NCBI GenBank assembly: GCA_003149065.1
Contig: QGFZ01000002.1
Coordinates: 186,001-250,000, forward strand
Source: Ruminococcaceae bacterium R-25
GTDB lineage: Bacteria; Bacillota; Clostridia; Saccharofermentanales; Saccharofermentanaceae
Reading direction: 5' to 3'
Length of the DNA stretch: 64,000 nucleotides
A program made the position numbers and the translations under genes. Positions 3,113 through 41,441 of the stretch are shown here, one piece after another; the first letter of the stretch is position 1, and every line of letters begins with the position of its first letter. A model generated the notes under the pieces. It was not told where the DNA came from and did no database searches. It saw only the letters and a list, made by a program, of their open reading frames with translations.

Positions 3113-3144
3113 AGTTTATTAGGGCAACCTGAAATGCACCTGAA
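3113..3144 (-). promoter_or_regulatory. Proximal promoter of the response regulator with 11-bp direct repeat
   Basis: Reading the minus strand: TTCAGGT (3144-3138), TTCAGGT again 11 bp later (3133-3127), then 8 bases and TAAACT (3118-3113) as a -10. No -35 is needed if the regulator activates. The start point would be near 3106, directly before the ribosome site. The same layout recurs at 38353 and 41410. Confidence 0.65.
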
Positions 3145-3158
3145 ATCCTGACAATAGT

Positions 3159-3187
3159 ATAATACTGATTAGACATTACATGTCCAA
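3159..3187 (-). promoter_or_regulatory. Upstream promoter of the two-component operon
   Basis: On the minus strand TTGGAC (3187-3182), a 17-bp spacer and TATTAT (3164-3159) form a sigma-A-like promoter upstream of the repeat-bearing one. Confidence 0.55.
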
Positions 3188-3279
3188 AAGCTCGAAAAAA
3201 CGGCAATTCTCGCTTTGTGTCGTGTTAATTTCCCCATGGACATCGTATCCTCAAACCGGCCGAAAGGAGGAATCCAAGC

Positions 3280-4389
3280 TTGGATCAGAAAAAGACAGGA
3301 CAGTTTCTCAAGACCTTACGTAATGAGAAGGGACTTACCCAGGAACAGCTGGCACAGAAATTTAACGTCAGTAACAGATCCGTTTCCAGATGGGAGACGG
3401 GTACGAATCTTCCTGATATCTCATTGCTGGTCGAGATAGCCGATTTCTATGATGTCGATGTCAGGGAGATCATAGACGGGGAAAGGAAAAGCGAGATGAT
3501 GGACCAGGAAACAAGAGAGGTCGCCGGCAAGATGGCGGACTATGCAACAGGCGAGAAAAGCAAGCTTTTGAGGCTTGTGCAGGTATTGTCGATAATAGGA
3601 GTAGGATTAACGGTCGTTGCAATAGTACTTCAGACATTGGCATATGAACCGGACTTGAAGCGCGCCGGAGCGATATTTGCGACATTCTTAGGCTTTATAG
3701 TCATGAGCATAATCACGCTCTACGTAACGGGCCTTTTGCAGAGGTTCAGTAAGCACAGGAAGGCAGTAAAAGCCGTAAAGATAATTACCATAGTGCTGAT
3801 GGCAATTGTCACGCACTATGTGCTTGCGGCGGTGGTAATGTTTACTGTGGTGTACGCAATGTTTACCAGTGCCAAGATCGAAGTCAGCACGGATGCTTCG
3901 GATTTCAATAAGTACATTCATAACGGAGATGACAAGGACAGCGAATACAGTATGGGTACGAACCCGCTTTTCGATGTCATGCCGGAGAAGATCGAAGCGG
4001 AAGTTACCGAATACCAGCTCACTTATTATAACCCGTGGGACGGCCAGTACATTGTCTACATGACGCTCGACTACGGTGACAGATACGATGCTGAGATCGC
4101 AAGGCTTCAGGCGATCGGAATTGACGATTACAAGGGCATCTACACCGTAACAGGTGATCCCGAAGGCTACGATCTGGTCGCTATGGATTCCGACGAGTAC
4201 AACGGATTTGTCTATGCCATGATCCCTGAGGGTCAGGAAGGCAACACGAAGATCACCTACTGTGCGATCGTGTTCTGCAATTATTTCCTTGATCTGGATG
4301 TGCATGAATACATACCGGACAAGTACCTGCTGCCGGGCTTCGATGCGACGGACGAAAACCCGTACAGGAAAGAGAAATTGAATCTGTAA
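3280..4389 (+). CDS. XRE-family regulator with membrane tail
   Basis: A 369-residue protein starting with TTG, set by the AAAGGAGG at 3263-3270 nine bases upstream. Residues 7-60 are a Cro/C1-type helix-turn-helix (TQEQLAQKFNVSNRSVSRWETG). After a polar linker come three or four membrane helices (about 95-190) and a 150-residue domain of unknown type rich in Tyr, Asp and Glu. The design suggests a membrane-tethered transcription regulator that reads an envelope or external cue through its C-terminal part. It is divergent from the two-component operon with 188 bp between them. Target genes are unknown. Confidence 0.88.
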   Translation: MDQKKTGQFLKTLRNEKGLTQEQLAQKFNVSNRSVSRWETGTNLPDISLLVEIADFYDVDVREIIDGERKSEMMDQETREVAGKMADYATGEKSKLLRLVQVLSIIGVGLTVVAIVLQTLAYEPDLKRAGAIFATFLGFIVMSIITLYVTGLLQRFSKHRKAVKAVKIITIVLMAIVTHYVLAAVVMFTVVYAMFTSAKIEVSTDASDFNKYIHNGDDKDSEYSMGTNPLFDVMPEKIEAEVTEYQLTYYNPWDGQYIVYMTLDYGDRYDAEIARLQAIGIDDYKGIYTVTGDPEGYDLVAMDSDEYNGFVYAMIPEGQEGNTKITYCAIVFCNYFLDLDVHEYIPDKYLLPGFDATDENPYRKEKLNL

Positions 4390-4395
4390 CAGCTG

Positions 4396-4427
4396 ATACC
4401 CGCGCCTCAAAGGTGCGGGTATTTTAA
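4396..4427 (+). terminator. Terminator after the XRE regulator
   Basis: ATACCCGC and GCGGGTAT form the outer stem with an inner CCT/AGG around a CAA loop, followed by TTTAATAA. Confidence 0.85.
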
Positions 4428-4536
4428 TAATCGGATTGACCTCAAAACATTAACAAAAATCAATGATAAATTGAATATTAATATTAAACCTTGTTGATAC
4501 AATGAAAGCACACTAATACTGAAACGGGGTGCTGAT

Positions 4537-5262
4537 ATGTTGGATCTTACAGGCAAATGGGTTTTGGTAACAGGTGCCGCGAGGGGCATAGGAAGGCTTG
4601 CCGCGCTTAAGATGGCAGAGCAGGGATGTAACCTGATCCTTCACAGCAGGGACATTTCCCACACGGCTTCTCTCGAAGAAGAATTGAAGGCTATGGGCGT
4701 TAAGTGCCACTCGGTTTCAGCTGATCTCAATGACATTCCCTCAGTACAGAAAATGCTCGAAAATATCGACGCTCTGGGCGTCGACGTCGATATCGTCCTC
4801 AACAATGCAGGTCTTCAGATCGCTTACAGGACTGATTACTACAAGACACCTGCAGACGATTACACAGTAAGCTTCAATGTTAATACGATCGCTCCCGCCA
4901 TGATCTGCTATCACTTCCTGCCGAAGATGACAGAGCGCGGTTTCGGACGCATCGTAAACACAACGAGCGGCATCGATAAAGAGCCTGAGCAGGCAGGTTA
5001 TTCCGCAGCAAAGGCAGCGCTCGACAAGATCACAAAGGACATGGCATCAAGGCTCGGCGGAACAGGCGTTGCGATGAACCTAACCGATCCAGGATGGTGC
5101 AGGACAGACCTTGGCGGTCCCAACGCGCCCAACGCACCTGAGAGTGCAATTCCCGGCGTCATCGTCGGAGCATTTGTTGACGATAACATCAACGGGCAGA
5201 TCTTCCACGCGCAGGATTTCGCGGGAATGACTCTCGAAGAAGCAGTAAACAGCATCAAATAA
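4537..5262 (+). CDS. Short-chain dehydrogenase/reductase (SDR)
   Basis: A 241-residue classical SDR. The Rossmann motif TGAARGIGR is at residues 11-19, NNAG near 88-91, and the catalytic Tyr-Lys pair in YSAAKAA, with Ser in TTSGID upstream. The enzyme should reduce or oxidise a carbonyl or alcohol with NAD(P)H; the substrate is not evident. A TACAAT -10 lies at 4498-4503. Fifteen bases separate it from the iron alcohol dehydrogenase, so the two probably form an operon for aldehyde/ketone reduction. Confidence 0.9.
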   Translation: MLDLTGKWVLVTGAARGIGRLAALKMAEQGCNLILHSRDISHTASLEEELKAMGVKCHSVSADLNDIPSVQKMLENIDALGVDVDIVLNNAGLQIAYRTDYYKTPADDYTVSFNVNTIAPAMICYHFLPKMTERGFGRIVNTTSGIDKEPEQAGYSAAKAALDKITKDMASRLGGTGVAMNLTDPGWCRTDLGGPNAPNAPESAIPGVIVGAFVDDNINGQIFHAQDFAGMTLEEAVNSIK

Positions 5263-5277
5263 AAAGGGAGATAATGT

Positions 5278-6429
5278 ATGGAAAACTTCACGTTCTACTC
5301 ACCCACAAAGTTCGTTTTCGGCAAGGGCACTGAATCTGAGGCAGGCAAGCTCGTTAAGGCTTTCGGCGGATCCAAAGTCCTCATCCACTATGGCGGCGGC
5401 AGTGTTGTCCGTTCAGGTCTTTTAGACCGCGTTAAGGCTTCACTCGACGGTGAAGGAATTCCATATGTCGAATTGGGCGGCGTTAAGCCGAACCCGAGAA
5501 GCGGCCTCGTTTATGAAGGTATCGACCTCTGCAAAAAAGAGGGCATTGATTTCATTCTCGCAGTAGGCGGCGGAAGCTCCATAGATTCATCCAAAGCTAT
5601 CGCAGCAGGCGTTGTTTACGACGGCGATTTCTGGGATTTCTATTGCGGCAAGCCTATCGAAAAGGCTCTCCCTGTAGGAACAGTCCTCACGATCGCAGCT
5701 GCAGGCAGCGAAGGCTCCGGCGACTCTGTTATCACCAAGGAAGAAGGTATGTACAAGCGCGGCGCAAGCGGCGAGGGCATAAGGCCCAAGTTCAGTATCC
5801 TCAATCCTGAACTTACACAGACTCTGCCTCCTTACCAGACGGCATGCGGCATCACGGACATCATGGCTCACCTTTACGAGCGCTATCTCACAAATTCAAA
5901 GGATGTCGAAGTTACAGACCGCCTGATCGAAGCACTCCTCATCACAATGAAAAATGAAGGACCCAAGGTAATCGCTGATCCCAACGATTATCAGGCACGC
6001 GCAAATATCATGTGGGCAGGCACTATGGCACACACAAATTCCTGCGGCGTTGGCCGTTCACAGGACTGGAACAGCCACAACATCGAGCATGAATTATCAG
6101 CTCTCTACGACTGCGCTCACGGTGCAGGACTTGCGGTAACAATGCCTGCAGTTTTCAAGTATGTTATGAACCACGATGTTGCACGCTTCACACAGGTTGC
6201 AAACCGCGTCTGGGGTGTTGAGACTGCCGAGGAAGGCATCGAAGCATTCAAGCAGTTCCTCATCTCCATCGGCATGCCTTCGACATTGGGCGAATTAGGC
6301 GGCAAGGAAGAAGATATTCCCACACTTGTTAAGAACCTCTGCTACGGCGACGGCCGTGACGGCACGATCTCCGGATTTGTAACTCTTAATGAGGAAGACT
6401 GCGCAAATATCTACAAAGCAATGATCTGA
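5278..6429 (+). CDS. Iron-containing alcohol dehydrogenase (butanol dehydrogenase/YqhD type)
   Basis: The 383-residue protein has the NAD(P)-binding GGGSSIDSSKAIA motif near residues 97-109 and the metal-binding His region (HNIEHELSALYDCAHGAGLAV), typical of group III alcohol dehydrogenases. The C-terminal half is helical. YqhD/BDH-type relatives use NADPH and reduce aldehydes such as butanal, which fits a fermentative anaerobe. Start ATG, with AAAGGGAG nine bases upstream. A weak hairpin followed by TTTTTT at about 6469-6487 may terminate it. Confidence 0.93.
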   Translation: MENFTFYSPTKFVFGKGTESEAGKLVKAFGGSKVLIHYGGGSVVRSGLLDRVKASLDGEGIPYVELGGVKPNPRSGLVYEGIDLCKKEGIDFILAVGGGSSIDSSKAIAAGVVYDGDFWDFYCGKPIEKALPVGTVLTIAAAGSEGSGDSVITKEEGMYKRGASGEGIRPKFSILNPELTQTLPPYQTACGITDIMAHLYERYLTNSKDVEVTDRLIEALLITMKNEGPKVIADPNDYQARANIMWAGTMAHTNSCGVGRSQDWNSHNIEHELSALYDCAHGAGLAVTMPAVFKYVMNHDVARFTQVANRVWGVETAEEGIEAFKQFLISIGMPSTLGELGGKEEDIPTLVKNLCYGDGRDGTISGFVTLNEEDCANIYKAMI

Positions 6430-6613
6430 TAATTATTTATATTTTTTGGAGAATATCCGGGCTTTCTTTTATGACAGCCTTTTTTCGTGCTTTTGAGACG
6501 TTTTTCGCAATACGGATGTTATGGCGCTCCAAATTGTCTGATTTTTTTGAACGATTTTTCAAACGGCTGTCTGCAAACGCCTCCCTGTAACTCAACCGTA
6601 ACAGTGCGTTCAT

Positions 6614-6640
6614 TTGACTAACATACCGATTTCCTATAAT
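6614..6640 (+). promoter_or_regulatory. Promoter of the pilus operon
   Basis: TTGACT at 6614-6619 and a consensus TATAAT at 6635-6640, 15 bp apart (16 if TTTGAC is used). Transcription would start near 6647, leaving about 45 nt before the GTG start of the signal peptidase. Confidence 0.65.
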
Positions 6641-6691
6641 CCGCAATAAATATACTTGCCATTATTGTGCAGAAATGGAGCAGGGAGACCG

Positions 6692-7330
6692 GTGAAAAAG
6701 GACGATCTGAGCGACCTTAGCCGCAGGGAGCTGGTCGATACTTTGTATAACCTGATGAACGAGAATGAACGGGGAGTTAAGAAGATCCCTGTTCCAAAGC
6801 AGGTTGCAGAGGAAAGACGGAGACTTCGGAAAAGAGCTAGGGTGACAAGGACAATTGTTACTGCTTTAGGAGCATTGACTGTAGTTGCTGCAGTTGCTGT
6901 TTTGTTGTCCACATTTCTTTTCACGGCAATTCAGGTATCCGGCGACAGCATGGAACCTACCTTATCTGACGGTGATGTTCTCGTTCTGCTCAATGCCCGC
7001 GACTATTCGAGCGGACAGCTCTGCTGTGTCGCCTGGCAGAACAAATTGCTTATAAAGCGTGTAATTGCTGTCGGAGGTGACAGCATTGACATAGACAGGG
7101 AAGGCAATGTCTCGGTAAACGGAAAGAAGATCGACGAACCTTATGTTACCGAGAAGAGCCTTGGTGAATGCGATATAGAATTCCCGTATCTTGTGCCCGA
7201 AGGCCGGGTATTTGTAATGGGAGATCAAAGATCGACATCGATCGACAGCAGAAGTTCTGCTGTAGGCGCTGTGGAAGAGGATCAGATAGTTGGCCGGGTC
7301 TGGTTTAAAGCGTGGCCGTTTGGGAGCTGA
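6692..7330 (+). CDS. lepB: Signal peptidase I of the pilus operon
   Basis: GTG at 6692 is preferred over a TTG at 6656 because GGAG/CAGGGAGA lies just before it and the promoter would start transcription too close to 6656. The 212-residue product has a long charged cytoplasmic N-terminus, one membrane helix (about 53-80), catalytic Ser86 in SGDSMEPTL, catalytic Lys122 in LIKRVIAVGGD and the late box MGDQRSTSIDSRS. It cleaves signal peptides on the outer face of the membrane. As first gene of a pilin operon it probably processes or helps assemble the pilins, as SipA-like proteins do in streptococcal pilus islands. Confidence 0.93.
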   Translation: MKKDDLSDLSRRELVDTLYNLMNENERGVKKIPVPKQVAEERRRLRKRARVTRTIVTALGALTVVAAVAVLLSTFLFTAIQVSGDSMEPTLSDGDVLVLLNARDYSSGQLCCVAWQNKLLIKRVIAVGGDSIDIDREGNVSVNGKKIDEPYVTEKSLGECDIEFPYLVPEGRVFVMGDQRSTSIDSRSSAVGAVEEDQIVGRVWFKAWPFGS

Positions 7331-7335
7331 ATACA

Positions 7336-10300
7336 GTGAATAAGCGCATTGAAAACTACATAATGCTGCTTAACAGGGCAAGAACAGGCAGGAGACGGTT
7401 AGTGTCCCTCGTACTTGCTCTGTCTTTAGCTGTTTCAGGAAATGTTTTCTGGCTCATGCGCGGAATCGGAACCGCTTTGACCAATGACCTTGTATGCGGA
7501 CTTGAAGAACATGTTCACAGCGAAGAATGTTATGAGAAAAAGCTTATCTGCGAAGAGGAACATGAACATACCGATGAATGTTATGAAATGATCCTTATTT
7601 GCGGTAAGGAAGAACATAAACACACTGAAGACTGTTATGCACCTGTTTCCGTTCAGCGCGAGACACGATCTGATTGGGAAAAGACGATCCCCAAGACCCG
7701 TGGTGTCTATGCGAGCGATCTTATGAACGTTGCCGCATCTCAGACAGGTTATGTCGAGAGCGAGGACGGATATACAAGATATGGTGACTGGTACGGCAAC
7801 CCGACAGCTGACTGGAATGTGATGTTTATATCATTCTGCATGCATTATGCGGGTATCAGCAAGGATAAGATACCCGGCGGTGCAGGCTGTTGGGCATGGC
7901 AGGTCAAGCTCGAAGAAAAAGGACTTCTCATTACGGATCTGAATGTTTTACCTCAGATCGGTGACATCGTTCTTGCAGATAAGGACGGCGACGGCAAGTG
8001 CGACCGTGCCGGCATCGTAGCAGATGTTACTGACGGAAAGATCAGTCTGATCGAAGGTGATGTTGACGGCAAAGTCGGCACTGCATCTTATACTTCCGGC
8101 AGTGGCGTGGTATTCGGTTATGTTTCCATTAATTCTTTAAATAAGCAGGAAGTTAAGCCTGATGATGAGGCTGTATCCGAGACTGCAGAAGAAACAACAG
8201 CCGCGTTACCGGAAGGAACAACAGAAGAACCCGCCGAAACAACGGAAACCACCACGGAAGAAAAGGTTTCTATTTTAGAATTTAACGCTGAAACAGAATC
8301 CGGTATCTGCGTTAAAGCAACTGCACCTGCAGGTGCGTTCCCTGAAGGCGTCACTATGACCGCCGCAGATGTTAACGACGAGAATATCATCGCCAAGGCT
8401 GAAGGCGCTGTGGAAGAAAATAAGGAAGTAAAGGGAAGTATCGCTATAGATATTACCTTTAAAGACAGTGACGGAAATGAGATTGAACCTGCGGAAGACA
8501 CAACGGTTAACGTTAGTATCAGCATTCCTGAAGATAAGCAGATCGATGCTGATTCCTACAGCCTTTTCCACGTTAACAATGATGGCGCGACAGAGGTTGA
8601 AGGTGTTCAGGCAACGCAATCGGAAGTCGTTTTCGAATCTGACAGTTTCTCTATCTTTATCCTTACGGCAACAGGAGAAAGAAGCAAGGATAAAGTACAT
8701 GCATGGATCAAGAATGCCGGCATGGGCACTCTTGAAGGTCATAGAGAATATGATCCTGAAACCGGTACATATGGCGACTATATCGTTAATGACAGAGAAT
8801 ATCCTTACGTATTGAGAGCAGGTGACACTATAACCCTTATCGGATATAACGATCAGCAGACTCCCAGATTTGTGATAGAAACTGATGACGGCAATAACAA
8901 CAGTAATAATCACAGAAATATCGAGATAGTCGGCGAACAGACGGTTGAAGGAGATAAGGTAACTGCCGTAATAAGCGGTGTCGGCTCCACTGGATGGAGA
9001 TATGAAAATGATCACTGGATAAGAGATTCCGTCAGGATCAGACTTGAGGGTACCGATGAATACTTCTATATCCAGGTCGATGAATACGGTTCTTCGGGTG
9101 CTGTGGTTGATTTTGATAATGTTCCTGTTTACAACAACAATAATGACAATATATGGAATTATTATGTCCGTGTCGGCCAGACGATTTCTGTAGCCGGTAC
9201 GCCTAACCAAAACGGCGATCATTGGCCGTATATTGCAAATGGAGATAATCCGAACGGCTGGATAATAACAAACAATGCTTCATACCAGCAGCTTGATAAC
9301 GGAAAGAGACAGCTTACAATCCCTGCCGAGATTTATTATGGAAACCGCGATAATGTTCAGATCATTACCATGTATACACCGCAGGGCATAAAGAAGGTAA
9401 GGATCATCGAGAATGTTGACGGCAACATCGATCATGCCGATATCGAGATTGCGGATGGCGGTGTCTATACCAATGTTCAGATTGAAGGCGGTAAGAACGG
9501 CGAACTGTATAAGACAGTTACCGAATACCAGTCATTTGTATATGACGTCAATTATTCTGAAATGCTCAATTCGCAGGGCGGAGTCGTCCAATTCTATGAT
9601 AACAATGCAGGATATGCACCAATCACTCCTTCAAGATTTATAGGCGGTAAGGATCCTGAAACCGGTGAATGTCATGACTACTGGTCTGATCCTAATTATG
9701 CTCCAGGCAATTCACAGTATGAGTTAACTTCCAAGTACACTTGTCCGCCCGGAGAGACTTTCGATATGGGGCATGCCCGTTGGAGCAACAAGAGATTCTT
9801 CTATCAGGATGTAGCAGGTGCTATATTTGATGTCGAACTTCAGATTATTCCCCGCCATGTCCAAAAGTTTATCTGGAATGCTGATGCAAATGGCGGAGCC
9901 GGTGGATGGGATCCCATTTCCGGTCAGAATATCGAATATGATATCCATTACAACCAGGGTACGGGCGGCCAGTACAGGACGCGTACGGACAATGGCCCCT
10001 GGTCCGACTTTATTGATCTTAAGCCGGCTTCTTCCGGCGGTATCGTCGAATATAAAAACGAAGTCTTCAATCTTGGTAAGCAGGCCGTGATCGATGCTTA
10101 TAACAAGTGCCCGAACCATTCCGGGCTTGATTTTACAGTTCATCACGATCTTGCAACGATTGAGTTTACCGCGAGCAAAGTTCTGACAGGAAGAACTCTT
10201 CAGAACAACGAATTCCTTTTTAAGCTCTTCCCGAGTGTTGAAGAGGCAATAGCTGATCCTGTTCCGACAGGAATTGCTTCGGCGAGAAACGATGCCTCGG

Positions 10301-10713
10301 GAAAAGTGGTTTTCGAGAATGTCGAATTCGAAAACGTTTCAGGTGAGCACACATACACTTACTACATGAGAGAGATCCCCGGAGACGATGAAGAAGTCAT
10401 ATACGATCCTGTTATCTACAAGATAATCATTGACGTAAACAAGGTAAAACATAACGCCGGGCCTGAAGGTCAGGACATTGTCGTTCCTGTCGATATAAGG
10501 TCGTTTACAAGACTTCGAAAAGGCGGAGATCCGACTAATGACAATGACTATCTGCCGGCTGACCAGTTTGTATTTAATAACACAACGAATAAATACGTTC
10601 TGCCTGATACAGGAGGTGGCGGCATCGCACCATACTTTGCCATCGGCACAGTGCTGATCGTGGGAGCCCTGATACTGCTGTTGCTCAGGCGGCGCAAGGA
10701 GGTGGATTTGTGA
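7336..10713 (+). CDS. LPDTG-anchored surface protein/pilus adhesin with degenerate CHAP-like domain
   Basis: A 1125-residue wall protein. GTG at 7336 has GGGAG nine bases upstream. Order: N-terminal membrane/signal segment (21-45); three Cys/His repeats with an EEH.H...CY pattern (54-101); a CHAP-like domain (about 121-265); a Thr/Glu-rich linker; a domain common in clostridial LPXTG proteins (about 320-450); a long beta-rich middle; an FctA/Spy0128-type pilin domain (about 950-1060) that usually forms Lys-Asn isopeptide bonds; then LPDTG at about 1089, a membrane helix and RRRKEVDL. In the CHAP-like part the expected WC is WN (Asn161) and the expected His before GIV is absent, so it is probably a binding module. 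Likely the pilus tip or accessory pilin. Confidence 0.88.
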   Translation: MNKRIENYIMLLNRARTGRRRLVSLVLALSLAVSGNVFWLMRGIGTALTNDLVCGLEEHVHSEECYEKKLICEEEHEHTDECYEMILICGKEEHKHTEDCYAPVSVQRETRSDWEKTIPKTRGVYASDLMNVAASQTGYVESEDGYTRYGDWYGNPTADWNVMFISFCMHYAGISKDKIPGGAGCWAWQVKLEEKGLLITDLNVLPQIGDIVLADKDGDGKCDRAGIVADVTDGKISLIEGDVDGKVGTASYTSGSGVVFGYVSINSLNKQEVKPDDEAVSETAEETTAALPEGTTEEPAETTETTTEEKVSILEFNAETESGICVKATAPAGAFPEGVTMTAADVNDENIIAKAEGAVEENKEVKGSIAIDITFKDSDGNEIEPAEDTTVNVSISIPEDKQIDADSYSLFHVNNDGATEVEGVQATQSEVVFESDSFSIFILTATGERSKDKVHAWIKNAGMGTLEGHREYDPETGTYGDYIVNDREYPYVLRAGDTITLIGYNDQQTPRFVIETDDGNNNSNNHRNIEIVGEQTVEGDKVTAVISGVGSTGWRYENDHWIRDSVRIRLEGTDEYFYIQVDEYGSSGAVVDFDNVPVYNNNNDNIWNYYVRVGQTISVAGTPNQNGDHWPYIANGDNPNGWIITNNASYQQLDNGKRQLTIPAEIYYGNRDNVQIITMYTPQGIKKVRIIENVDGNIDHADIEIADGGVYTNVQIEGGKNGELYKTVTEYQSFVYDVNYSEMLNSQGGVVQFYDNNAGYAPITPSRFIGGKDPETGECHDYWSDPNYAPGNSQYELTSKYTCPPGETFDMGHARWSNKRFFYQDVAGAIFDVELQIIPRHVQKFIWNADANGGAGGWDPISGQNIEYDIHYNQGTGGQYRTRTDNGPWSDFIDLKPASSGGIVEYKNEVFNLGKQAVIDAYNKCPNHSGLDFTVHHDLATIEFTASKVLTGRTLQNNEFLFKLFPSVEEAIADPVPTGIASARNDASGKVVFENVEFENVSGEHTYTYYMREIPGDDEEVIYDPVIYKIIIDVNKVKHNAGPEGQDIVVPVDIRSFTRLRKGGDPTNDNDYLPADQFVFNNTTNKYVLPDTGGGGIAPYFAIGTVLIVGALILLLLRRRKEVDL

Positions 10714-32045: not shown

Positions 32046-32046
32046 T

Positions 32047-33849: not shown

Positions 33850-33874
33850 TCTGATATAAAAACACATAAAGAAC

Positions 33875-33903: not shown

Positions 33904-33906
33904 ATA

Positions 33907-34272
33907 TCAGACGATGTTATAACCTTCTTTTCCAAGCACTTGCAGTGCCTTTTCGAAGTTTTCTTCCTTCGCGAGAATGTAGTCCGTGTTGTATGTCGAT
34001 ACGGCAAAGATACCGATCTTGTTTTCGGCGAGGATCGAAGATATCTTCGACAGTATTCCGATGAGCGAAAAGTCTAACACTCCTTCAATGCGGAAGCCCC
34101 TCCAGCCGTCATCTCTTTCGATAGTTTCTTTAGGGCAGTCGGAAGTCTTGCAGACAAGTGAGATCTCTTCGTCCGTGCGTGCGGCAAACCAGAAATCTTT
34201 GTCCGGCACGAGGGATTCAACAGACTTCAGTTTGCATACTGTGAACTGATAGGGTAAACGCTTAAGATCCAT
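33907..34272 (-). CDS. ACT-domain protein (COG3603/CASTOR-like)
   Basis: A 121-residue cytoplasmic protein with two small ACT-like units: SVESLVPDKDFWFAARTDEEISLVC in the first and GILSKISSILAENKIGIFAVSTYNTDYILAK in the second, the latter very typical. ACT domains bind amino acids; the free-standing form suggests a sensor. It is 3 bp downstream of the small membrane protein gene in the same orientation. Ligand unknown. Confidence 0.85.
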   Translation of the reverse strand: MDLKRLPYQFTVCKLKSVESLVPDKDFWFAARTDEEISLVCKTSDCPKETIERDDGWRGFRIEGVLDFSLIGILSKISSILAENKIGIFAVSTYNTDYILAKEENFEKALQVLGKEGYNIV

Positions 34273-34275
34273 AGA

Positions 34276-34647
34276 TTATTCCGTCCCGTTATCTGCTTTT
34301 TCTGCCGCCCAGGCCTTCTGAAATCTGAAGGTGAAGATAACAGCATAGACTGCGATAAGGACGACCCACCATCCGGACAGTTTTCCGTTGGATGTTGAAG
34401 TGTAGATGACAGTAAATGCTGCGTATGCTACGAAAACAATGGCAGCGACCCTGCTCTGAAGGAAATGTATCAGAAGCGAGCATACCAGTAAGAAAAGAAC
34501 ATCGGCAAGAGCAAAATGATTTTGGGATTTGATCACATTGAAGTACAAGGTAAGGCCTGCGAGCACATAGCCTAAGATCGCACATGTTGTGATGTTTTTT
34601 CTAATAGCGGACATTTGAGGAGATTTGAAGAACTCTAATCTTGTCAT
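34276..34647 (-). CDS. Small membrane protein, unknown function
   Basis: ATG at 34647 follows AGGAGGT closely; a longer frame from 34680 lacks a site. The 123 residues hold about four hydrophobic helices between a basic N-terminus (TRLEFFKSPQMSAIRKN) and a polar C-terminal tail (RFQKAWAAEKADNGTE). No family recognised. Probably co-transcribed with the ACT-domain gene downstream. Confidence 0.7.
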   Translation of the reverse strand: MTRLEFFKSPQMSAIRKNITTCAILGYVLAGLTLYFNVIKSQNHFALADVLFLLVCSLLIHFLQSRVAAIVFVAYAAFTVIYTSTSNGKLSGWWVVLIAVYAVIFTFRFQKAWAAEKADNGTE

Positions 34648-34745
34648 GGTATACCTCCTATGAATCTGTTGCTGCAACAATTATAACAATAAAAGGTGAT
34701 ACAATGATGTGGCTGAGCCAATTCAGTTTTTGGGGGTAGATCAAT

Positions 34746-35582
34746 ATGAACAAGAAGGTTATCACGGTTTTGCAGATAGTAATTCCTGCCGTTACGATCG
34801 CAGGAGCTGCTTTAATCGGAAGTTTCTATTACGCAACACAGAGATGTACTGATGAAGTGCCGGATACGACATCTCTTTATGTTTATACGGTTGACGAGGA
34901 ATTCGGCGAGCTCAACCAAAGATATGCAAAAGCTATGGGAATTGAACCCAAGGCTAAGGACAGGCTCATTACTTACGATTCGATTCCCGAGATCAGTTCC
35001 TGGAATGAAGTAAAGTACATTTACATCTTCAGTGACACCGCAGTTGAAGCTGCAGATGAAGATTACAAGGCCGGGAAAAATGTAAAGCTGGCTATCCCTT
35101 CGGATGTAGTGTTTTACTATGGCGACTGTTCCGGAATATGGAGCTTGTTCGGTGATGAAGTTAAAAACGATGACAGATCACACTATGGCGAATATATGGT
35201 TTTCGACACCGCCGGGGATTCTTTCAAGAAAGTGTACGAAGAGCCGGATTACTACTTTTACTACAAATACGATCCTTCCACATGGGAGGAGTTCAGGACT
35301 GAACTTGACAGCTACCTGACAGCAAATGATGCAAGTTCGGATGTAAGCATGCTGATCACGACAAGGAGCAAGCCGGATGCTTCAAATCTTCAGATGAAGC
35401 TGATGTATGAGTTCCCCGCTTCAAATTACGATTCGGCGCATTACAGCAAGGTTTGGAACGAGTCCTACAACAAGGAAGTAGGAATGAAGATCGCAATTCC
35501 TTCAGTATGCTTGGTTGTTTTACTGACCGGCATCGAGATACTTTTCGCCTGGCTCAAGAAACCGCGCAAACAAGAGGCTTAA
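34746..35582 (+). CDS. Membrane-anchored extracytoplasmic protein, unknown
   Basis: The 278-residue protein has one N-terminal membrane helix (about 6-26), a polar domain of about 220 residues rich in Tyr, Asp and Glu, and a second helix near the C-terminus (about 252-270) ending in KKPRKQEA. The bulk should lie outside the cytoplasm. GGGGGT precedes the ATG. I recognise no family. Confidence 0.7.
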   Translation: MNKKVITVLQIVIPAVTIAGAALIGSFYYATQRCTDEVPDTTSLYVYTVDEEFGELNQRYAKAMGIEPKAKDRLITYDSIPEISSWNEVKYIYIFSDTAVEAADEDYKAGKNVKLAIPSDVVFYYGDCSGIWSLFGDEVKNDDRSHYGEYMVFDTAGDSFKKVYEEPDYYFYYKYDPSTWEEFRTELDSYLTANDASSDVSMLITTRSKPDASNLQMKLMYEFPASNYDSAHYSKVWNESYNKEVGMKIAIPSVCLVVLLTGIEILFAWLKKPRKQEA

Positions 35583-35702
35583 TGTCTGAAAATTGACGTC
35601 CCCGAAATCAAATAAAATGTACATTTTCCGTAGCGGTAGAACTTTTTATTTCTGATGATATAATGTCTATCGGTTTATTGCGGAAAGGGTAAGTTTGGGT
35701 CA

Positions 35703-36737
35703 ATGCAGAAGCTTTTATCTGTGGCGATACCCTCCTATAACTCGGAAGATTATGTCAGCAGAGCTATCGAGAGTCTGCTGCCGGGTAAGGAGCAGGTGGA
35801 GATCATTGTCGTTGACGACGGTTCGACTGATGATACATCCAGGATCGCTGAAGAATATATAGAAAAATATCCTGATACCGTGCGCCTTATCAAGAAAGAG
35901 AACGGCGGTCACGGCGATGCTGTTATGGCAGGTCTTAGCGCAGCTACAGGCCTTTATTTCAGGGTCCTTGATTCTGATGACTGGCTCGAAAAAGAGTCTT
36001 TGTTAAAGCTCCTTAAGGTTCTTGAAGAGATGAGAGATCCCGAAAAGGCAGCAGATCTCGTTATCACCAATTACGTTTATGAGAAAGTAAACGAGGGCAA
36101 GAGCCACCCGATCCATTACAGAAAGACGCTTCCTACCGGCAGGCTTTTCGGCTGGGACGAAGTAGGCAAGTGGGCCACAGGTTCTTATATCCTGATGCAC
36201 TCTGCGACATATAAGACCGAGCTCGCCAGAAACAGCGGAATGAAGCTTCCGAAGCACACTTTTTATGTAGACCACCTTTTCGTATGCTACCCCATGATGA
36301 AGGTCGAAAAGATGTACTATCTGGACGTCGACCTTTACCGTTATTTCATCGGCCGTGAAGACCAGTCCGTAAATGAGAAGGTAATGCTCAGCCGTATGGA
36401 CCAGCAGCTCAAGGTTAACCGCCTCATGCTCTATGAGCTCGACACGGATTCCATTAAGAATAAAGCACAGAGAGAATATCTCTATTACTATACCGAGATC
36501 GTTACGCTCGCTACTGTTTCATTCCTTCTCCGTCTTGGCACAAAAGAAGACGAGCAGGTAATGCAGTCTTTCCTTGATGAAGTTCAGGAAAAGCGCCCGG
36601 TCTATTACGAGTGGCTCTGCCAAAAGCCTTTTACGCGCCACATGATCGGCCCTGTCAGAAGATGGCCGCACTGGTTCTGCTATCCTGTTTACCGTTTCTG
36701 CTACCTGGTAGCAAGAAAGCTTTTCGGATTCAATTAA
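35703..36737 (+). CDS. Family 2 glycosyltransferase
   Basis: A 344-residue GT-A glycosyltransferase: LSVAIPSYNSEDYVSRAIESL at the N-terminus, IIVVDDGSTDDTS (about 33-45) for nucleotide binding, and FRVLDSDDW (about 87-95) for the metal-binding DXD region. It transfers a sugar from a nucleotide donor, probably in envelope glycan or glycolipid synthesis. There is no C-terminal membrane pair, so it is cytoplasmic or peripheral. A TATAAT lies at 35659-35664. The stop overlaps that of the convergent flippase-like gene. Confidence 0.9.
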   Translation: MQKLLSVAIPSYNSEDYVSRAIESLLPGKEQVEIIVVDDGSTDDTSRIAEEYIEKYPDTVRLIKKENGGHGDAVMAGLSAATGLYFRVLDSDDWLEKESLLKLLKVLEEMRDPEKAADLVITNYVYEKVNEGKSHPIHYRKTLPTGRLFGWDEVGKWATGSYILMHSATYKTELARNSGMKLPKHTFYVDHLFVCYPMMKVEKMYYLDVDLYRYFIGREDQSVNEKVMLSRMDQQLKVNRLMLYELDTDSIKNKAQREYLYYYTEIVTLATVSFLLRLGTKEDEQVMQSFLDEVQEKRPVYYEWLCQKPFTRHMIGPVRRWPHWFCYPVYRFCYLVARKLFGFN

Positions 36738-37753
36738 CCTTTTTTCTTCGGTTTGATCGAGAGAAGAACCAATCCCAATCCGCTTCCTACGAGCGGCAGC
36801 ATAAAGCTGCAGAAACGCGATAACAGCATGACGCTTCCCATTAATCCCGTGGGGATCAGGCCGGAATAAAATAATGCATAACCATATTCGGTAACGCCTG
36901 CAGCGCCCGGAAGCGGCAATGAAGATACTGAGATAAAGAGCGAAGACTGCGTTCTTAAGACCGTGAACCAGTCAAGATCTGTGCATCCGACCGCATGTGC
37001 GCAGAAAAATGTTACCGAGTGGAACAGGATTATCTGAATAAGCGAAGTAATAAGCATTTTCACGAACACGATCTTATTCTTCTTAAGGAGCGCTGCTGCT
37101 TTTCTGTAACATGCGAAAGACCTTAAGAACTTGAATCTCTCGCCGGGCTTGATACCTCTTACCTTAATGAACCAGAGTCCGATGCCGATGAAAAAGCCTG
37201 CGAGTTTTCTCGTAAAGAGCACGCAGATCAAAAATGCGATTATCGCGAGATTTAATGCAAAACCTATAGGGAAGACATATGCAAATCTGCCCTGAAGCTT
37301 AAATACTTCGCCGTGTGAGCAGATAACGCCGATTACGCCTAAGAATACTGCCGCGCACTGGAAGCTCAAAAGCGCGCAAAGGAGCGTAAATGCGCTGTGC
37401 GACACCTTCAGTTTGTCTTTGGCCATGAAGTAGAGCTGGCCCGGCTGTCCGCCTGTAGATGAGGGAGTGATCGAGCTGAAGAAGAACCCTGCAAAAGAAT
37501 ATTTCATCATCTGCGCGAAAGTGATCTTATAGCCGTCAAGTTTCAAGCATCTGCTGATATTGATGCCGTCGCAGACAGCATAGACCGCCATCGCCAGGAT
37601 CGCAGCCAATACCCACCAGATATTTGCATTTTTAAGAGTCCCGATGATGTCCTGGCCTTCAAGCTCTTTATAGATGACATAGACCGTTGCCCCGCCGAGA
37701 ATCAGCAGAAACAGCGCCCCAAGCCAAAGAGACTTTTTCTTAAGAAGTTCCAT
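36734..37753 (-). CDS. LPG-synthase-type membrane protein (MprF flippase-like, UPF0104)
   Basis: A polytopic protein with about eight helices of the lysylphosphatidylglycerol synthase membrane domain family: SITPSSTGGQPGQLYFM and LPGAAGVTEYGYALFY are the characteristic motifs. There is no C-terminal aminoacyl transferase domain, so it is the flippase/transport half only. Such proteins move lipids or lipid-linked sugars. I use ATG 37753; a TTG at 37780 would add nine residues and neither has a strong ribosome site. It is convergent with the glycosyltransferase gene, sharing two bases of stop codon. Confidence 0.87.
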   Translation of the reverse strand: MELLKKKSLWLGALFLLILGGATVYVIYKELEGQDIIGTLKNANIWWVLAAILAMAVYAVCDGINISRCLKLDGYKITFAQMMKYSFAGFFFSSITPSSTGGQPGQLYFMAKDKLKVSHSAFTLLCALLSFQCAAVFLGVIGVICSHGEVFKLQGRFAYVFPIGFALNLAIIAFLICVLFTRKLAGFFIGIGLWFIKVRGIKPGERFKFLRSFACYRKAAALLKKNKIVFVKMLITSLIQIILFHSVTFFCAHAVGCTDLDWFTVLRTQSSLFISVSSLPLPGAAGVTEYGYALFYSGLIPTGLMGSVMLLSRFCSFMLPLVGSGLGLVLLSIKPKKKG

Positions 37754-37878
37754 TCGAAAAGTTGATCCATCCCTAATCAATTAATCAGCTAGGTTATTTT
37801 AGGAGTTTTTCCATTAGTTTTCAATTATATGGAGAGCTTTCACGCAAAGTTCGCTCAAAAGGGAGACTTTAAGTTGTA

Positions 37879-37884
37879 TATAAT
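37879..37884 (+). promoter_or_regulatory. -10 element before the small lipoprotein gene
   Basis: TATAAT lies 27 bases before the ATG; no good -35. Confidence 0.45.
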
Positions 37885-37911
37885 AGCTTCGAGCGAAAAA
37901 GGAGAGAAAAG

Positions 37912-38328
37912 ATGAAAAAATTACTTGCAACACTTTTGGCAGCGGGGATGGTCCTCGCGATTTCATCCTGCGGCAAGGAACCTGAATCTTCCAAGGAAGA
38001 GCCCTCTGTCCAGCCTGACGTCACAGTCACGGAAACCGAGGCCGCAAAGGGCTGGGAAGGCAACTATCAGTCCGCTGATTCAGATGAGCATTTCAGGATC
38101 TACGATGTAACTGACACAGGCTTTAAAGTCGAGTTCTACCACTACGAAGAAGACCTCATCGAGAGGTTCGATTATGAGATGGAATACGACAATGCCGAAA
38201 AGACTATGGCTTCCGAGATCGGAAATGCCGACGACAAAGGCGGCTGGGAGTACAGATTCGCTTTCGGCGGCGACTCCATTACCGTCAGCTGGCAGGAAAA
38301 AGTCATGTTATATCAAAGAGTTTCATAA
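37912..38328 (+). CDS. Small lipoprotein, unknown function
   Basis: A 138-residue secreted lipoprotein: basic start, hydrophobic stretch and lipobox AISSC (Cys20), then a short acidic linker (KEEPSVQPDVTVTETE) and a beta-rich domain of about 95 residues with repeated Asp/Glu-Tyr-Phe strands. The domain resembles small lipocalin-like or DUF-type sensor domains, but I recognise no family. GGAGAG precedes the ATG. Confidence 0.75.
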   Translation: MKKLLATLLAAGMVLAISSCGKEPESSKEEPSVQPDVTVTETEAAKGWEGNYQSADSDEHFRIYDVTDTGFKVEFYHYEEDLIERFDYEMEYDNAEKTMASEIGNADDKGGWEYRFAFGGDSITVSWQEKVMLYQRVS

Positions 38329-38352
38329 ATTCCTGAAATTTTCCCCACTGAC

Positions 38353-38384
38353 TTCAAGTACATTTCAGGTTGGGGTCTCATAAT
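38353..38384 (+). promoter_or_regulatory. Direct-repeat promoter of candidate small RNA 1
   Basis: TTCAAGT (38353-38359) and TTCAGGT (38364-38370) are phased by 11 bp, then 8 bases, then CATAAT (38379-38384). The core repeat matches 18 of 20 bases of the minus-strand repeat before the response regulator gene. Confidence 0.7.
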
Positions 38385-38390
38385 GAGGTC

Positions 38391-38475
38391 GTATAACAAA
38401 GAACTACTCAGAGTTCCCAAAATGTACACCCTCCCCGAATAAAAAAGGTTGTCTCATACGAGGCAACCTTTTAAT
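38391..38475 (+). ncRNA. Candidate small RNA 1, about 85 nt, C-rich
   Basis: A predicted start about seven bases past the CATAAT and a strong terminator at 38444-38472 bound a short transcript with no start codon plus ribosome site. CACCCTCCCC (38427-38436) lies just 5' of an A-run and the terminator hairpin. This stretch contains CCTCC and can pair with GGAGG ribosome sites, as in csRNA/RsaE-type regulators. It lies between the small lipoprotein and the GH94 gene. Confidence 0.6.
38441..38475 (+). terminator. Terminator of small RNA 1
   Basis: A 12-bp stem AAAGGTTGTCTC / GAGGCAACCTTT with an ATAC loop; A-run before and TTAATC after. Same TGTCTC/GAGGCA core as at 33875 and 62980. Confidence 0.85.
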
Positions 38476-38515
38476 CTTTAGTGCAGTTGTAGGTCAGTGT
38501 GGTTTGCTGTCGACG

Positions 38516-38618
38516 TTTTGTAGACGATTTTCCGTTTTTCGTCTACAAAATGTGCAAAAACGCTTGAATTTGCACGATTTGCAGACGTTTTTTCGATTTT
38601 CGTCTACAAAATGTGCAA
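38516..38618. repeat. Two-unit dyad array D, period 61 bp
   Basis: Arms TTTTGTAGACG and CGTCTACAAAA frame 35-bp dyads at 38516-38550 and 38577-38611 (left arm of the second reads ATTTGCAGACG). Each right arm is followed by TGTGCAA, and the first of these pairs with TTTGCACG at 38569-38576, forming a linking dyad. The array lies between convergent genes; no coding potential. Confidence 0.85.
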
Positions 38619-38662
38619 CAGCTGATTCGACCGGTCAAACAGGTGTCAGTGTCAAACAGCTG

Positions 38663-41335
38663 TTAATCGAGTTCTACCTCAATGATGCCGCCGATCTTAT
38701 CCTTGGGAAGGACATTGGTGCCTTCGCTGACCAGCGCGCCGTCGACCATGATCGACTTGACGGCGGATGCGTTAGCGTCCATCGAATATATAACATTTAC
38801 GGGCTTGCCGTTGAACTCGAATTCGACAGAAGCCTTGCCCTCTGAATCGAACTGCGAAGGCAGGAGCTTGGGCTCGAAAACCATATCGCCGTAAGAACCC
38901 TTTATACCGAACATCTCTGTAAGGACTGTGAGCATCAGCCAGCTTGCCGCGCCCGTGAGGTAGTGGTAAACGCCTCTGCCCTTGGGATCGAAATATTCAG
39001 GAACGCCGGGATAGATCTTGCTCTTCCCGAAGTCCGTTGCGTGGCGGTAAAGGGTGCCGATAACTTTCCAGCCCTCTTCCTTGAAGCCTCTGGTATAAAG
39101 GGCGTTGCCGAACATGACGGTCATGTGTGAGAAGACAGCGCCGTTTTCCTTTTGTCCGTAGGAGAAGCCGAACATACGGCCCATGTCGGTCTTGATCTCA
39201 TGGAAATCCGTATTGAGCTTATAGCCGCCGAGCGAGGGATCGTAGATGTATTTGTCAGCGGATTTAATGATCTCAGGGATCTGTTCATCGGTTGCGACTC
39301 CGGACATGATCGTGAAGACCTCGCCTGTGAGCATCATGGCAGGTCTGCCGTGCTTGTCGCCGTTCTTCTCAAGAGCATTGCCGCTGTTGTCGTAATAGCC
39401 GTTATAGCGGGAATAACCCTCGCTGTCGGTGAACCATTCGGTCTCTCTGATATGGGAAATGATCCAGTCAGCCTTCTTCTCAAGGTCATCTGCGAGCAGG
39501 TCGATGTCAAAGACCTTCTTTGCACCTGAAAAACCGGTTTTAACATTGTTACAGTAGCTCAATAGTACGCTCTGGAGCTTATTAGCATCGTAAACGCCAA
39601 AGAGGCCTTCTAACTCTTCGCAGGCCTCGATCGAGGTCTTTCCGAAGACCTTTTTGTACTCTCTTAAGATGCTCGCGAGCTTTTTGTAGTTGCCTGCATA
39701 AGCTGCCGTGAAGGCAACGCTCTCACCTTTGTCCTTGCCCATGTCGAGCGCATCGTTCCAGTCAGCTCCTCTGAGCTTCATGTGGCCGTGCTCGCCTACA
39801 TCGAAGAAAGATGCAAAGTTCTGAAGGAGGAGGTGCTCCATGACCGTGCCGCTGCAGGATACGCAGGAAAGATCGGTATCCTTGTCCAGCAGTTCCTCGC
39901 CTCTCATAACCTGGCGGTCGATGAAGTAGGGAGCCGTCTCATCAAGGATCTTGAGGTCACCCGTCTGCTTTATATAAAGGTCCATAGTCATGAAAGGCCA
40001 CATTGCGTGGTCCATCCAGACACGTGTGATGCCATTTCTGTCAGCGATGAATTCGCCGCTCTTGCTGCCGATAATGGTTGCGTTCGTGCCGTCGCATCTT
40101 ACGCCGCCGAAGTTATCGACGAGCATGCCTCTTACATCAGAAGGATCCATAATTATCAGCGCCAGGCAGTCCTGCCAGAGGTCTCTCCAGCCTCTGCCAC
40201 CCTTGCCGTAATCGTGATGGGGAAGGAATGAGCAGCCGTATATCCTTCGAAGCATCGGCTGAACACCGACCCAGTACATCCAGTTGTCAAAGATCTTGTC
40301 ACCTGTGTGGAATCTGACATTATTTTTGTCGACCCAGTAATTCATGTTATCGGCCCAGCCTTTATCGAAAGCCGTGGAATCTAAGTATTTAACGGCCTTT
40401 GCCTGAAGGGCATCAGATACAGAGAGGATCTCTTCTTCGGTATCGGAAGGCTTATCGAGGTCGTCTATTGCGAGCGCGAAAAAGTAATCAATGTCCTCGC
40501 CCGGTTCCAGTGTTTTTTTCGAAAACATAGCTGCGCCCATTGCTTCAAAGCCGTCAACGCGTGTGCCGGGCTTTGCAGCGGGAGCGCCTGTTACAGGGAA
40601 TCTCGGGTTGTCGAAAGCTCCGCCTTCGCCGATGAAATCTTCTGCGACAGGGCAGAAGGATACAGGCTTATAGCCTTCACCTTCAGCTGCGAAGAAACCG
40701 TAGATGACCTTATTTCTTCTGTGTCCTCTCTCGTCGAAAGTGAGGGTGGGATCGTTTGTTACGCCGTATTCGGTAACGGTCATGCGGTTGAGCATGGAAG
40801 TAACGTTTCTGTGGTCTCTGATGTTGTCAGCCGAACGTCCGTAGATAGGTGTTGCGGCTGTCGGTGTGAAAGTAACGGGCGAAGTGCCGTTATTGGTAAT
40901 TCTGACCCTTGTAAGTTCGATCCTGTCTGAGGTATTAACAGGTACGAAAGTGGTGATCCCGATCTCAAGATCCCTTTCGCTTATAAGGCGTCGGATGCTC
41001 TGCCATAAAAGGCCGTTTGTTAAGGTGACTTTGTCTTTTTCTTCTGTAAATCTTTTCGCATGCTGGGATGCGGAAGCGCCCGTTGCCGATATGAGAGTGC
41101 CGTCTTCAAAACAGAGCCAGAAGTTTCTGGTAGAGCGGTTGTTGTGAAGATTATCGGAGGATACGGGCTCTAAGATGAATGTGTTCTGGGAGGTCTTAAG
41201 ATCGCCGCCTAATTCGGGCGTAAGGCATCCCATCATGCCGCTGGCTGCTCCAACGGGGAAGTAAAGATAGCTGTAAAGTTCGGGATCGTTTAATTTAAAA
41301 GTGCCGTTTTCATCAAAGAATTTATAACCTTCCAT
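38663..41335 (-). CDS. GH94 glycoside phosphorylase
   Basis: ATG at 41335 has AAGGAGA eight bases upstream; a frame from 41365 lacks a site. The 890-residue enzyme has the GH94 plan: an N-terminal beta-sandwich (about 1-300), a linker and an (alpha/alpha)6 barrel with GGRGWRDLWQDCLALI and the catalytic Asp in GADWNDALDMG. GH94 enzymes split beta-glucosidic disaccharides with phosphate to give a sugar 1-phosphate and save ATP. The length is nearer laminaribiose or cellodextrin phosphorylases than the roughly 810-residue cellobiose enzymes; the substrate is not settled. No transporter is adjacent. Confidence 0.92.
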   Translation of the reverse strand: MEGYKFFDENGTFKLNDPELYSYLYFPVGAASGMMGCLTPELGGDLKTSQNTFILEPVSSDNLHNNRSTRNFWLCFEDGTLISATGASASQHAKRFTEEKDKVTLTNGLLWQSIRRLISERDLEIGITTFVPVNTSDRIELTRVRITNNGTSPVTFTPTAATPIYGRSADNIRDHRNVTSMLNRMTVTEYGVTNDPTLTFDERGHRRNKVIYGFFAAEGEGYKPVSFCPVAEDFIGEGGAFDNPRFPVTGAPAAKPGTRVDGFEAMGAAMFSKKTLEPGEDIDYFFALAIDDLDKPSDTEEEILSVSDALQAKAVKYLDSTAFDKGWADNMNYWVDKNNVRFHTGDKIFDNWMYWVGVQPMLRRIYGCSFLPHHDYGKGGRGWRDLWQDCLALIIMDPSDVRGMLVDNFGGVRCDGTNATIIGSKSGEFIADRNGITRVWMDHAMWPFMTMDLYIKQTGDLKILDETAPYFIDRQVMRGEELLDKDTDLSCVSCSGTVMEHLLLQNFASFFDVGEHGHMKLRGADWNDALDMGKDKGESVAFTAAYAGNYKKLASILREYKKVFGKTSIEACEELEGLFGVYDANKLQSVLLSYCNNVKTGFSGAKKVFDIDLLADDLEKKADWIISHIRETEWFTDSEGYSRYNGYYDNSGNALEKNGDKHGRPAMMLTGEVFTIMSGVATDEQIPEIIKSADKYIYDPSLGGYKLNTDFHEIKTDMGRMFGFSYGQKENGAVFSHMTVMFGNALYTRGFKEEGWKVIGTLYRHATDFGKSKIYPGVPEYFDPKGRGVYHYLTGAASWLMLTVLTEMFGIKGSYGDMVFEPKLLPSQFDSEGKASVEFEFNGKPVNVIYSMDANASAVKSIMVDGALVSEGTNVLPKDKIGGIIEVELD

Positions 41336-41409
41336 AGGTATAGTCTCCTTAATTGTATTAGCCACCTTCTGACAGTATAAATGATTTCACTCAACTTTTC
41401 CTCATGCAT

Positions 41410-41441
41410 TTCAAGTTCGTTTTAGGTCAGGGGGCAATAAT
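41410..41441 (+). promoter_or_regulatory. Direct-repeat promoter of candidate small RNA 2
   Basis: TTCAAGT (41410-41416) and TTTAGGT (41421-41427) are phased by 11 bp, then 8 bases, then AATAAT (41436-41441). Spacing and the following TAATGNNGTC match the promoter at 38353-38384. Confidence 0.68.

Follow-up and report, generated by a model that had tools for sequence, protein, structure and literature searches.

In a 64,000-nucleotide stretch of contig QGFZ01000002.1 from Ruminococcaceae bacterium R-25 (positions 186,001 to 250,000, hereafter the window), the OmpR-type response regulator RR1 and its sensor kinase appear to govern an envelope-stress-type two-component regulon, in which RR1 would drive its own gene together with two predicted small RNAs (sRNA1 and sRNA2) that would repress translation. 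We give this reading, which draws on sequence comparison, a probability of roughly 80%. An earlier note on this DNA had described three copies of one promoter module and proposed that the regulator at 2414-3091 drives itself and the two RNAs, in the manner of streptococcal CiaR and its csRNAs. Comparison supports that proposal: the direct repeat stands at the RR1 promoter in 20 of 20 full-length orthologues, and the RNAs recur in relatives with the same promoter. It is also supported by an anti-initiation motif shared across the genus, by the repeat at 10 of 14 RNA matches in a sister genus, and by HtrA being the commonest protein behind such sites in relatives. The predicted circuit is wider than the one first proposed. 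Its elements in the window are the following.

1191-2420, minus strand: sensor histidine kinase gene, 409 amino acids, overlapping the RR1 gene in one operon (Pfam HisKA and HATPase_c)
2414-3091, minus strand: response regulator gene RR1, OmpR type, 225 amino acids (Pfam Response_reg and Trans_reg_C)
3113-3118, minus strand: -10 element TAAACT, 8 bp past the repeat (spacing conserved in relatives)
3127-3144, minus strand: direct repeat TTCAGGTGCATTTCAGGT of the RR1 promoter, candidate autoregulatory site (same position in all 20 orthologues)
38353-38370, plus strand: direct repeat TTCAAGTACATTTCAGGT of the sRNA1 promoter (aligned with three relatives)
38379-38384, plus strand: -10 element CATAAT of sRNA1 (from the sequence)
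38391-38476, plus strand: sRNA1, predicted transcript of about 86 nucleotides (nt), its start placed from the -10 element (relatives on the same side of a GH94 gene in genomes G079 and G044)
38428-38436, plus strand: C-rich motif ACCCTCCCC of sRNA1, with no preceding CAU (sequence and fold)
38443-38472, plus strand: intrinsic terminator of sRNA1 (hairpin scan)
41410-41427, plus strand: direct repeat TTCAAGTTCGTTTTAGGT of the sRNA2 promoter (aligned with four relatives)
41436-41441, plus strand: -10 element AATAAT of sRNA2 (from the sequence)
41448-41530, plus strand: sRNA2, predicted transcript of about 83 nt, its start likewise placed from the -10 element (aligned with RNAs of G031, G079, G044 and G078)
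41477-41493, plus strand: anti-initiation motif TTCATAACAGCCCCCAA of sRNA2, with CAU as anti-start and CCCCC as anti-Shine-Dalgarno (mean unpaired probability 0.99 from CAU to CCCCC)
41500-41524, plus strand: intrinsic terminator of sRNA2 (hairpin scan)

In the proposed circuit, the sensor kinase would phosphorylate RR1, which would occupy, as a tandem dimer, a pair of half-sites spaced by one turn of the helix (TTTCARGT-N3-TTTYAGGT). These half-sites would cover the -35 region, as for CiaR, at about -38 to -21 from the predicted start and 8 bp before the -10 element, and transcription would be activated. RR1 would in this way raise expression of its own operon and of the small RNAs at about 38391-38476 and 41448-41530. 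The C-rich stretch, which follows a CAU and is unpaired in most relatives and in sRNA2, would then pair with the Shine-Dalgarno sequence and start codon of target messages and repress their translation, while in relatives the same sites would drive HtrA-like proteases, VTC-domain proteins and other envelope-type genes. What we observe are the sites, their positions, their excess in the genome and the genus, and the conserved architecture of the RNAs; that RR1 binds, that the promoters are transcribed and activated instead of repressed, and what the targets and the signal are, we infer.

The promoter module in the window and in the genome

All three modules lie at the positions given in the earlier note and match it to the base: TTCAGGTGCATTTCAGGT-TGCCCTAA-TAAACT on the minus strand at 3144-3113, ahead of RR1, TTCAAGTACATTTCAGGT-TGGGGTCT-CATAAT on the plus strand at 38353-38384, and TTCAAGTTCGTTTTAGGT-CAGGGGGC-AATAAT on the plus strand at 41410-41441. 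Re-checking agrees with the counts reported there, namely 18 of 20 identical bases through the repeat in the first two modules and 8 bp between repeat and -10 element in all three, and terminator-like hairpins do follow both plus-strand copies (38443-38472 and 41500-41524). The repeat is better written as TTTCAGGT occurring twice, 11 bp apart. Paired like half-sites with an 11-bp period are typical of OmpR-family dimers.

Within the window alone, the bare repeat at up to one mismatch is modestly unusual and not impressive, with 4 matches against a shuffle mean of 1.31 and 4 of 100 shuffles reaching as many. The genome-wide scan that the earlier note had called for was run on the whole genome (3.07 Mb, 7 contigs) and gave eight exact matches to the bare repeat, including the three window sites. 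Four of the eight, the window sites and one at C2:428969-429000 on the minus strand, have flanking Ts and a -10 element at N8; of the others, one falls within a 206-codon frame and three belong to a dispersed repeat that has no -10 element. Allowing one mismatch, the bare repeat matches 94 times against 67 for its reversed control, a weak excess. The extended pattern TTCARGT-N3-TTTYAGGT-N8-NANAMT, derived from the four sites, gives four matches without mismatches, none at one or two and six at three, and its reversed control gives none up to two mismatches and seven at three. The sequence observation goes beyond chance. Since the extended pattern was derived from those same four sites, the real test is the scan of the genus.

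Two observations from the same scan concern matches outside the window. The dispersed repeat, found at C2:263069, C2:380302 and C3:10595 (loci L005, L006 and L008 of this genome, G000), opens with TTTTCAGGCGTTTTTCAGGCCTTCAAATGCACAAG followed by spaced TATCGAAAAC and GATACA words, and resembles the regulator repeat but lacks a -10 element. The fourth site (L007, C2:428969, minus strand) precedes a 26-codon open reading frame (ORF), MEHQRRKKKIKDAADDEVDDSIEYTF. Parts of this ORF match the beginning and an internal segment of a 548-residue adaptor protein (L311) that follows such a site in G031, so that the ORF appears to be what is left of a decayed exporter adaptor gene whose promoter has survived.

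The repeat across the genus and its probable reader

Across 85 genomes of the genus, the extended pattern at up to two mismatches finds 152 sites against 10 for the reversed control. At least 18 of these sites represent a single conserved match within a GAPDH-like gene, and 134 remain once they are set aside; the copy of this coding match in R-25 has three mismatches (L039). The DNA downstream of each -10 element was read in 80 fetched stretches, all from relatives and together holding 82 of the 152 sites. These 82 were hand-picked from the sites listed, leaving out the 18 GAPDH matches, unlisted sites and several with one or two mismatches, and because the sample was picked by eye its class shares cannot be extrapolated to the 152 as a whole. 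The sites are followed by 34 short terminator-ended RNAs, 34 ORFs of at least 100 amino acids, nine RR1 genes, two short VTC-like ORFs and three unclear features. HtrA-like proteins with a Trypsin_2 domain are the commonest among the 34 ORFs (14), followed by VTC (8), Cthe_2159 (2), biotin-lipoyl (2) and the beta-lactamase family (1). In nine genomes (G006, G044, G051, G056, G066, G068, G069, G073 and G095) the HtrA-like gene and its site are divergent from RR1, a place that is occupied in R-25 by a helix-turn-helix (HTH) gene. The two short VTC-like frames (L130 and L155) end after 43 and 59 codons and are possibly broken genes or assembly errors.

RR1 is present in 20 of the 85 genomes including R-25, the other 19 orthologues being 73-97% identical, and a partial gene occurs additionally in G077. 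Most other genomes of the genus carry only a paralogue, RR2, that is 45-53% identical to RR1. In the six closest orthologues the module sits at the same place with zero or one mismatch to the stricter pattern, and in all of the other 14 it starts 38-60 nt ahead of the start codon with one to three mismatches to a permissive pattern, for which the reversed control needs five to six. As the site stands at the RR1 promoter in every full-length orthologue, RR1 is the candidate to bind it; we regard this as strong evidence for autoregulation and as the best evidence of RR1 binding. The number of sites follows the gene as well. The 20 RR1 genomes have a mean of 3.8 sites, none being without one, versus 1.2 in the 65 others (Mann-Whitney p 8e-9, a nominal value because the genomes are related).

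The repeat could instead belong to another OmpR-family regulator, for instance RR2, with RR1 merely one of its targets. When the genomes are divided into three groups, the 21 with RR1 (G077 included) hold 78 sites and none lacks one, while the 48 with RR2 only still hold 62 sites (14 genomes without) and the 16 with neither gene hold 12 (10 without). RR1 is thus not the sole possible reader of the site. A similar repeat at one to three mismatches precedes 4 of 15 RR2 genes whose upstream stretches were tested (L044, L045, L046 and L057), the other 11 having at least four mismatches, and R-25 itself has about 35 OmpR-type regulator matches. Against these points, the regulator closest to RR1 in R-25 is merely 37% identical to it, site counts peak where RR1 is present, and the promoters of all 20 orthologues carry the site. 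RR2 probably reads a similar site, and a specificity common to RR1 and RR2 would fit the sites in RR2 genomes. We consider it unlikely that the repeat belongs to another regulator, and take RR1 as the probable reader of its own promoter and of those of the two RNAs.

The small RNAs, their neighbours and their possible targets

The RNAs of 34 relatives were aligned with the two of the window, giving 36 sequences of 72-95 nt as cut. They have a common design, in which a variable 5' part is followed by a UUCAUAAcA-like stretch, a C-rich run and the terminator. The 5' part often forms a small hairpin in single folds and leaves no pair in the consensus, whose 10 pairs all lie within the terminator and all show compensatory changes. 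A CAU followed at N1-10 by CCC precedes the terminator in 28 of the 36 RNAs, compared with 5.0 for shuffled sequences (maximum over 1000 rounds, 13 of 36). This looser definition was adopted after a stricter one, requiring four of five Cs after the CAU, which is matched by 17 of 36 against 4.9% in shuffles; taken over the first 64 nt, the looser motif occurs in 29, one of which (L121) overran its terminator, and cutting at the terminator gives the 28. The mean unpaired probability of the anti-initiation stretch exceeds 0.75 in 15 of the 17 RNAs measured. Read as antisense, the CAU...CCC stretch would correspond to a translation start, with a G-rich Shine-Dalgarno sequence, a short spacer and AUGAA.

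Rfam covariance models gave no match in the window, and six matches at E up to 1 in 10 loci, none of them reaching its gathering score. Thr_leader was matched twice below that score, on the opposite strand (L004 and L174; 35 and 31 bits against 55). A covariance model of our own, R1, was built solely from sequence after the -10 element, and in the genus it gives 34 non-training matches at E up to 0.003. Upstream DNA is readable for 33 of them; the 34th, at a contig end with a half-site and a -10 element visible, was excluded from the count. The direct repeat is in place with at most three mismatches at 13 of the 33, 12 times at exactly -32 and once at -29, and as three of these were already in the genus site list, the new ones number 10 of 30. 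For 12 of the matches, the best score elsewhere in the upstream DNA was 4 to 7 mismatches. In a sister genus, the repeat lies at exactly -32 before 10 of 14 R1 matches, with at most two mismatches and half-sites closer to TTTAAAC/TTAAGG, which extends the link between RNA and repeat past the genus. The matches without a repeat indicate that the C-rich RNA family is wider than the regulon and not tied to this regulator.

Among such RNAs in R-25 is a further C-rich candidate (L303, C1:462625-462697, minus strand, E 0.0013) with TTCAAAACACCCTCC before its terminator and only a degenerate repeat, at four mismatches, upstream; two weaker R1 matches (both E 0.0135) lie at C4:64336 and C2:654245. L281, L288, L295, L297, L306 and others are RNAs of the same family without an upstream repeat, some with TTTTTCACTC-like stretches in its place, which perhaps mark another regulator. 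Ahead of RNA genes (e.g. L100, L124 and L135) the 8-bp spacer frequently has a TGGGGGN-like sequence, which is also seen before an HtrA gene (L160). The idea that this G-rich spacer (TTGGGGGC, complement-like to the C-rich motif) belongs to the RNA was dropped because the statistics are weak (permutation p 0.028 on related sequences) and because the same spacer occurs at the HtrA promoter.

Two further genes frame the RNAs in the window.

37912-38328, plus strand: small lipoprotein-like gene upstream of sRNA1 (no Pfam match; G079 has a 58% identical gene at the corresponding position)
38663-41338, minus strand: GH94-type gene between the two sRNA genes, given as context (Pfam; the genes next to such RNAs in G079, G044 and G031 are 89%, 84% and 89% identical to it)

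This layout recurs in G079, where RNAs stand at both ends of the GH94 gene and the lipoprotein-like gene lies upstream. RNAs also flank the same gene in G044, and in G031 an RNA is present on its 5' side only, the other side having no listed site and none seen by eye. In alignments with relatives, the promoter repeat, the -10 element, the C-rich run and the terminator are best conserved.

These alignments bear on a rival view, which we regard as improbable, that takes the short transcripts for 5' leaders, 3' ends or messages for small peptides and not for trans-acting RNAs. sRNA1 does come after the lipoprotein-like gene, whose transcript may share its terminator, and its promoter repeat begins 25 bp past a stop codon, so that the locus may double as a 3' end. 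A 19-codon frame also opens at ATG 38383, overlapping the -10 element and upstream of the predicted RNA start. As a small peptide of sRNA1, this frame was rejected, since by eye the alignments with relatives preserve the promoter, the C-rich motif and the terminator but not the frame. Moreover, all 34 RNAs of relatives end at terminators, frames of at least 40 codons were flagged in two only (L139 and L161), and sRNA2 points away from the GH94 gene and stops before a convergent GGDEF gene. That the motif is a sigma-factor promoter element, such as the -35 of an alternative sigma factor, deserves very little credence: it does occupy the -35 place with the -10 element at a fixed distance, but it consists of two similar half-sites with the 11-bp period of OmpR-family dimers and all 20 orthologues of an OmpR-family regulator have it at their promoter.

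Both window RNAs pair better with the start regions of 45 window frames, chosen by us, than with coding stretches used as controls (p 9e-4 and 2.5e-9). This indicates anti-Shine-Dalgarno potential only, since a C-rich RNA favours any purine-rich Shine-Dalgarno sequence over coding controls. By duplex energy over the 45 frames, the RR1 start region ranks third for sRNA1 (-20.8), and feedback of sRNA1 onto RR1 is possible. One complementarity match in the genome, L343, precedes the ATG of a 110-codon frame, and nothing else backs it.

Several observations, together with the sites in genomes without RR1 and the many OmpR-type regulators of R-25, weigh against the proposed regulon. A genome search for complements to segments of the two RNAs (17 and 18 nt, up to three mismatches) gave seven and two matches, including the RNA genes themselves (controls five and none), and no convincing start-region target was among them. 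sRNA1 is one of the eight RNAs without the CAU motif; it carries ACCCUCCCC with no CAU, and the predicted fold pairs part of this stretch with the 5' end of the RNA. R1 matched sRNA2 at E 2e-9, but sRNA2 is a training row, and sRNA1 was not recovered in the genome scan under strict filters despite being one too. The promoter is absent from 20 of the 33 non-training matches in the genus and from all five R1 matches in a more distant family. Of the 34 terminators of relatives, 27 come from the scan and the remaining seven were placed by visual inspection of folds. In G068 and G073 the -10 element would end just 6 nt before the RR1 start codon. Finally, HtrA was rejected as a member of the R-25 regulon because the HtrA match of this genome has no site.

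Two repeat features of the window are recorded here for completeness of description. After the sRNA1 terminator, 38513-38618 holds two hairpin-like 45-nt copies (89% identical; GTTTTGTAGACGA...TCGTCTACAAAAT) 61 bp apart. Their style is like that of an intergenic array at 798-1051, past a gene ending at about 711, in which ACGTACTAAT and TTAGTACGT words recur at a distance of 73 bp, interspersed with inverted copies.

Comparison with known systems

The system appears to add a third lineage to those where sibling anti-initiation RNAs are driven by a two-component system, with a different site, regulator helix and RNA family. Among the open-access papers listed, none describes such a system in Clostridia, judged by title, and none listed for Saccharofermentans deals with RNAs of that group by title. 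The RNA family has no name in Rfam 15 and now has a covariance model. Turnover of sites, RNAs and protein targets among the 85 related genomes offers a test of whether RNAs routinely let an activator-type regulator repress. We tentatively suggest, as a somewhat less than even prospect, that an OmpR-type envelope sensor driving itself, an HtrA-like protease and sibling start-blocking RNAs is a general module of Bacillota with the RNAs as the repressing arm of an activator-type regulator, whether inherited from an ancestor or evolved independently three times or more (CiaRH, LisRK and the present system).

CssRS of Bacillus is described as tied to the HtrA-like proteases htrA and htrB, and htrB is divergent from CssRS. 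We know of no RNAs of the CssRS system. The nine relatives with an HtrA-like gene and site divergent from RR1 recall this arrangement, and R-25 has the HTH gene there. With PmrA/BasR the system shares an OmpR-family regulator, and the PmrA box is a direct repeat with N5. The best PDB match of RR1 is instead 1kgs, with the PmrA/BasR structures 4s04, 4s05 and 8jo2 among the best matches, and RR1 falls below the cut-off of each of the best 25 of 100 NCBIfam families, PmrA among them. The kinase is likewise below the cut-off among the best 25 of 67.

LisRK of Listeria monocytogenes drives the multicopy, C-rich RNAs LhrC1-5, whose UCCC binds start regions under envelope stress (PMC4132741). By this description the present system is alike in that a two-component system would drive C-rich RNAs predicted to act at start regions. 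UCCC lies in loops and a linker of LhrC, and LisR-responsive positions are reported upstream of -53 (PMC4132741), whereas the repeat described here is at about -38 to -21 from the predicted start. UCCC occurs in the first 64 nt of 14 of the 36 RNAs, counted regardless of its position in the folds.

The closest resemblance is to CiaRH. In the accounts cited, CiaR recognizes TTTAAG-N5-TTTAAG (consensus NTTAAG-N5-TTTAAG), with ten nt to the -10 element as the search setting, and its recognition helix VVEVYVSKVRKKL varies among the streptococcal proteins described only by V/I at two positions (PMC3091779). Fifteen promoters are given for it, five of them for csRNAs in which a region complementary to Shine-Dalgarno sequence and AUG lies between two stem-loops; CAU is found in 53 of 61 predicted csRNAs, and in pneumococcus HtrA belongs to the regulon (PMC3091779, PMC8186281, PMC4507080). 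Here too, an OmpR-family regulator with a partner kinase is associated with an N5 direct repeat just upstream of the -10 element, with probable autoregulation, and with several sibling RNAs that have a terminator, an anti-Shine-Dalgarno run and CAU (the 28 of 36). HtrA-like genes stand behind the sites of relatives, as among the 34 ORFs above, and the R-25 gene has no site. This common logic would favour the view that the system is CiaRH itself, sharing ancestry with that of streptococci, its site letters having drifted. We hold that view to be unlikely. The half-sites are TTCARG-N5-TTYAGG rather than TTTAAG, nine nt and not ten separate the second hexamer from the -10 element in all four R-25 sites, and the recognition helix of RR1 matches that of CiaR at 7 of 13 residues, in another bacterial lineage. 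The csRNA nonamer [A/C]UCCUAAA[A/C] is absent in exact form from all 36 RNAs and occurs with one mismatch in one. Because half-site, spacing, recognition helix and RNA sequence all differ, we class the RR1 system apart from CiaRH, as a variant with the same logic.

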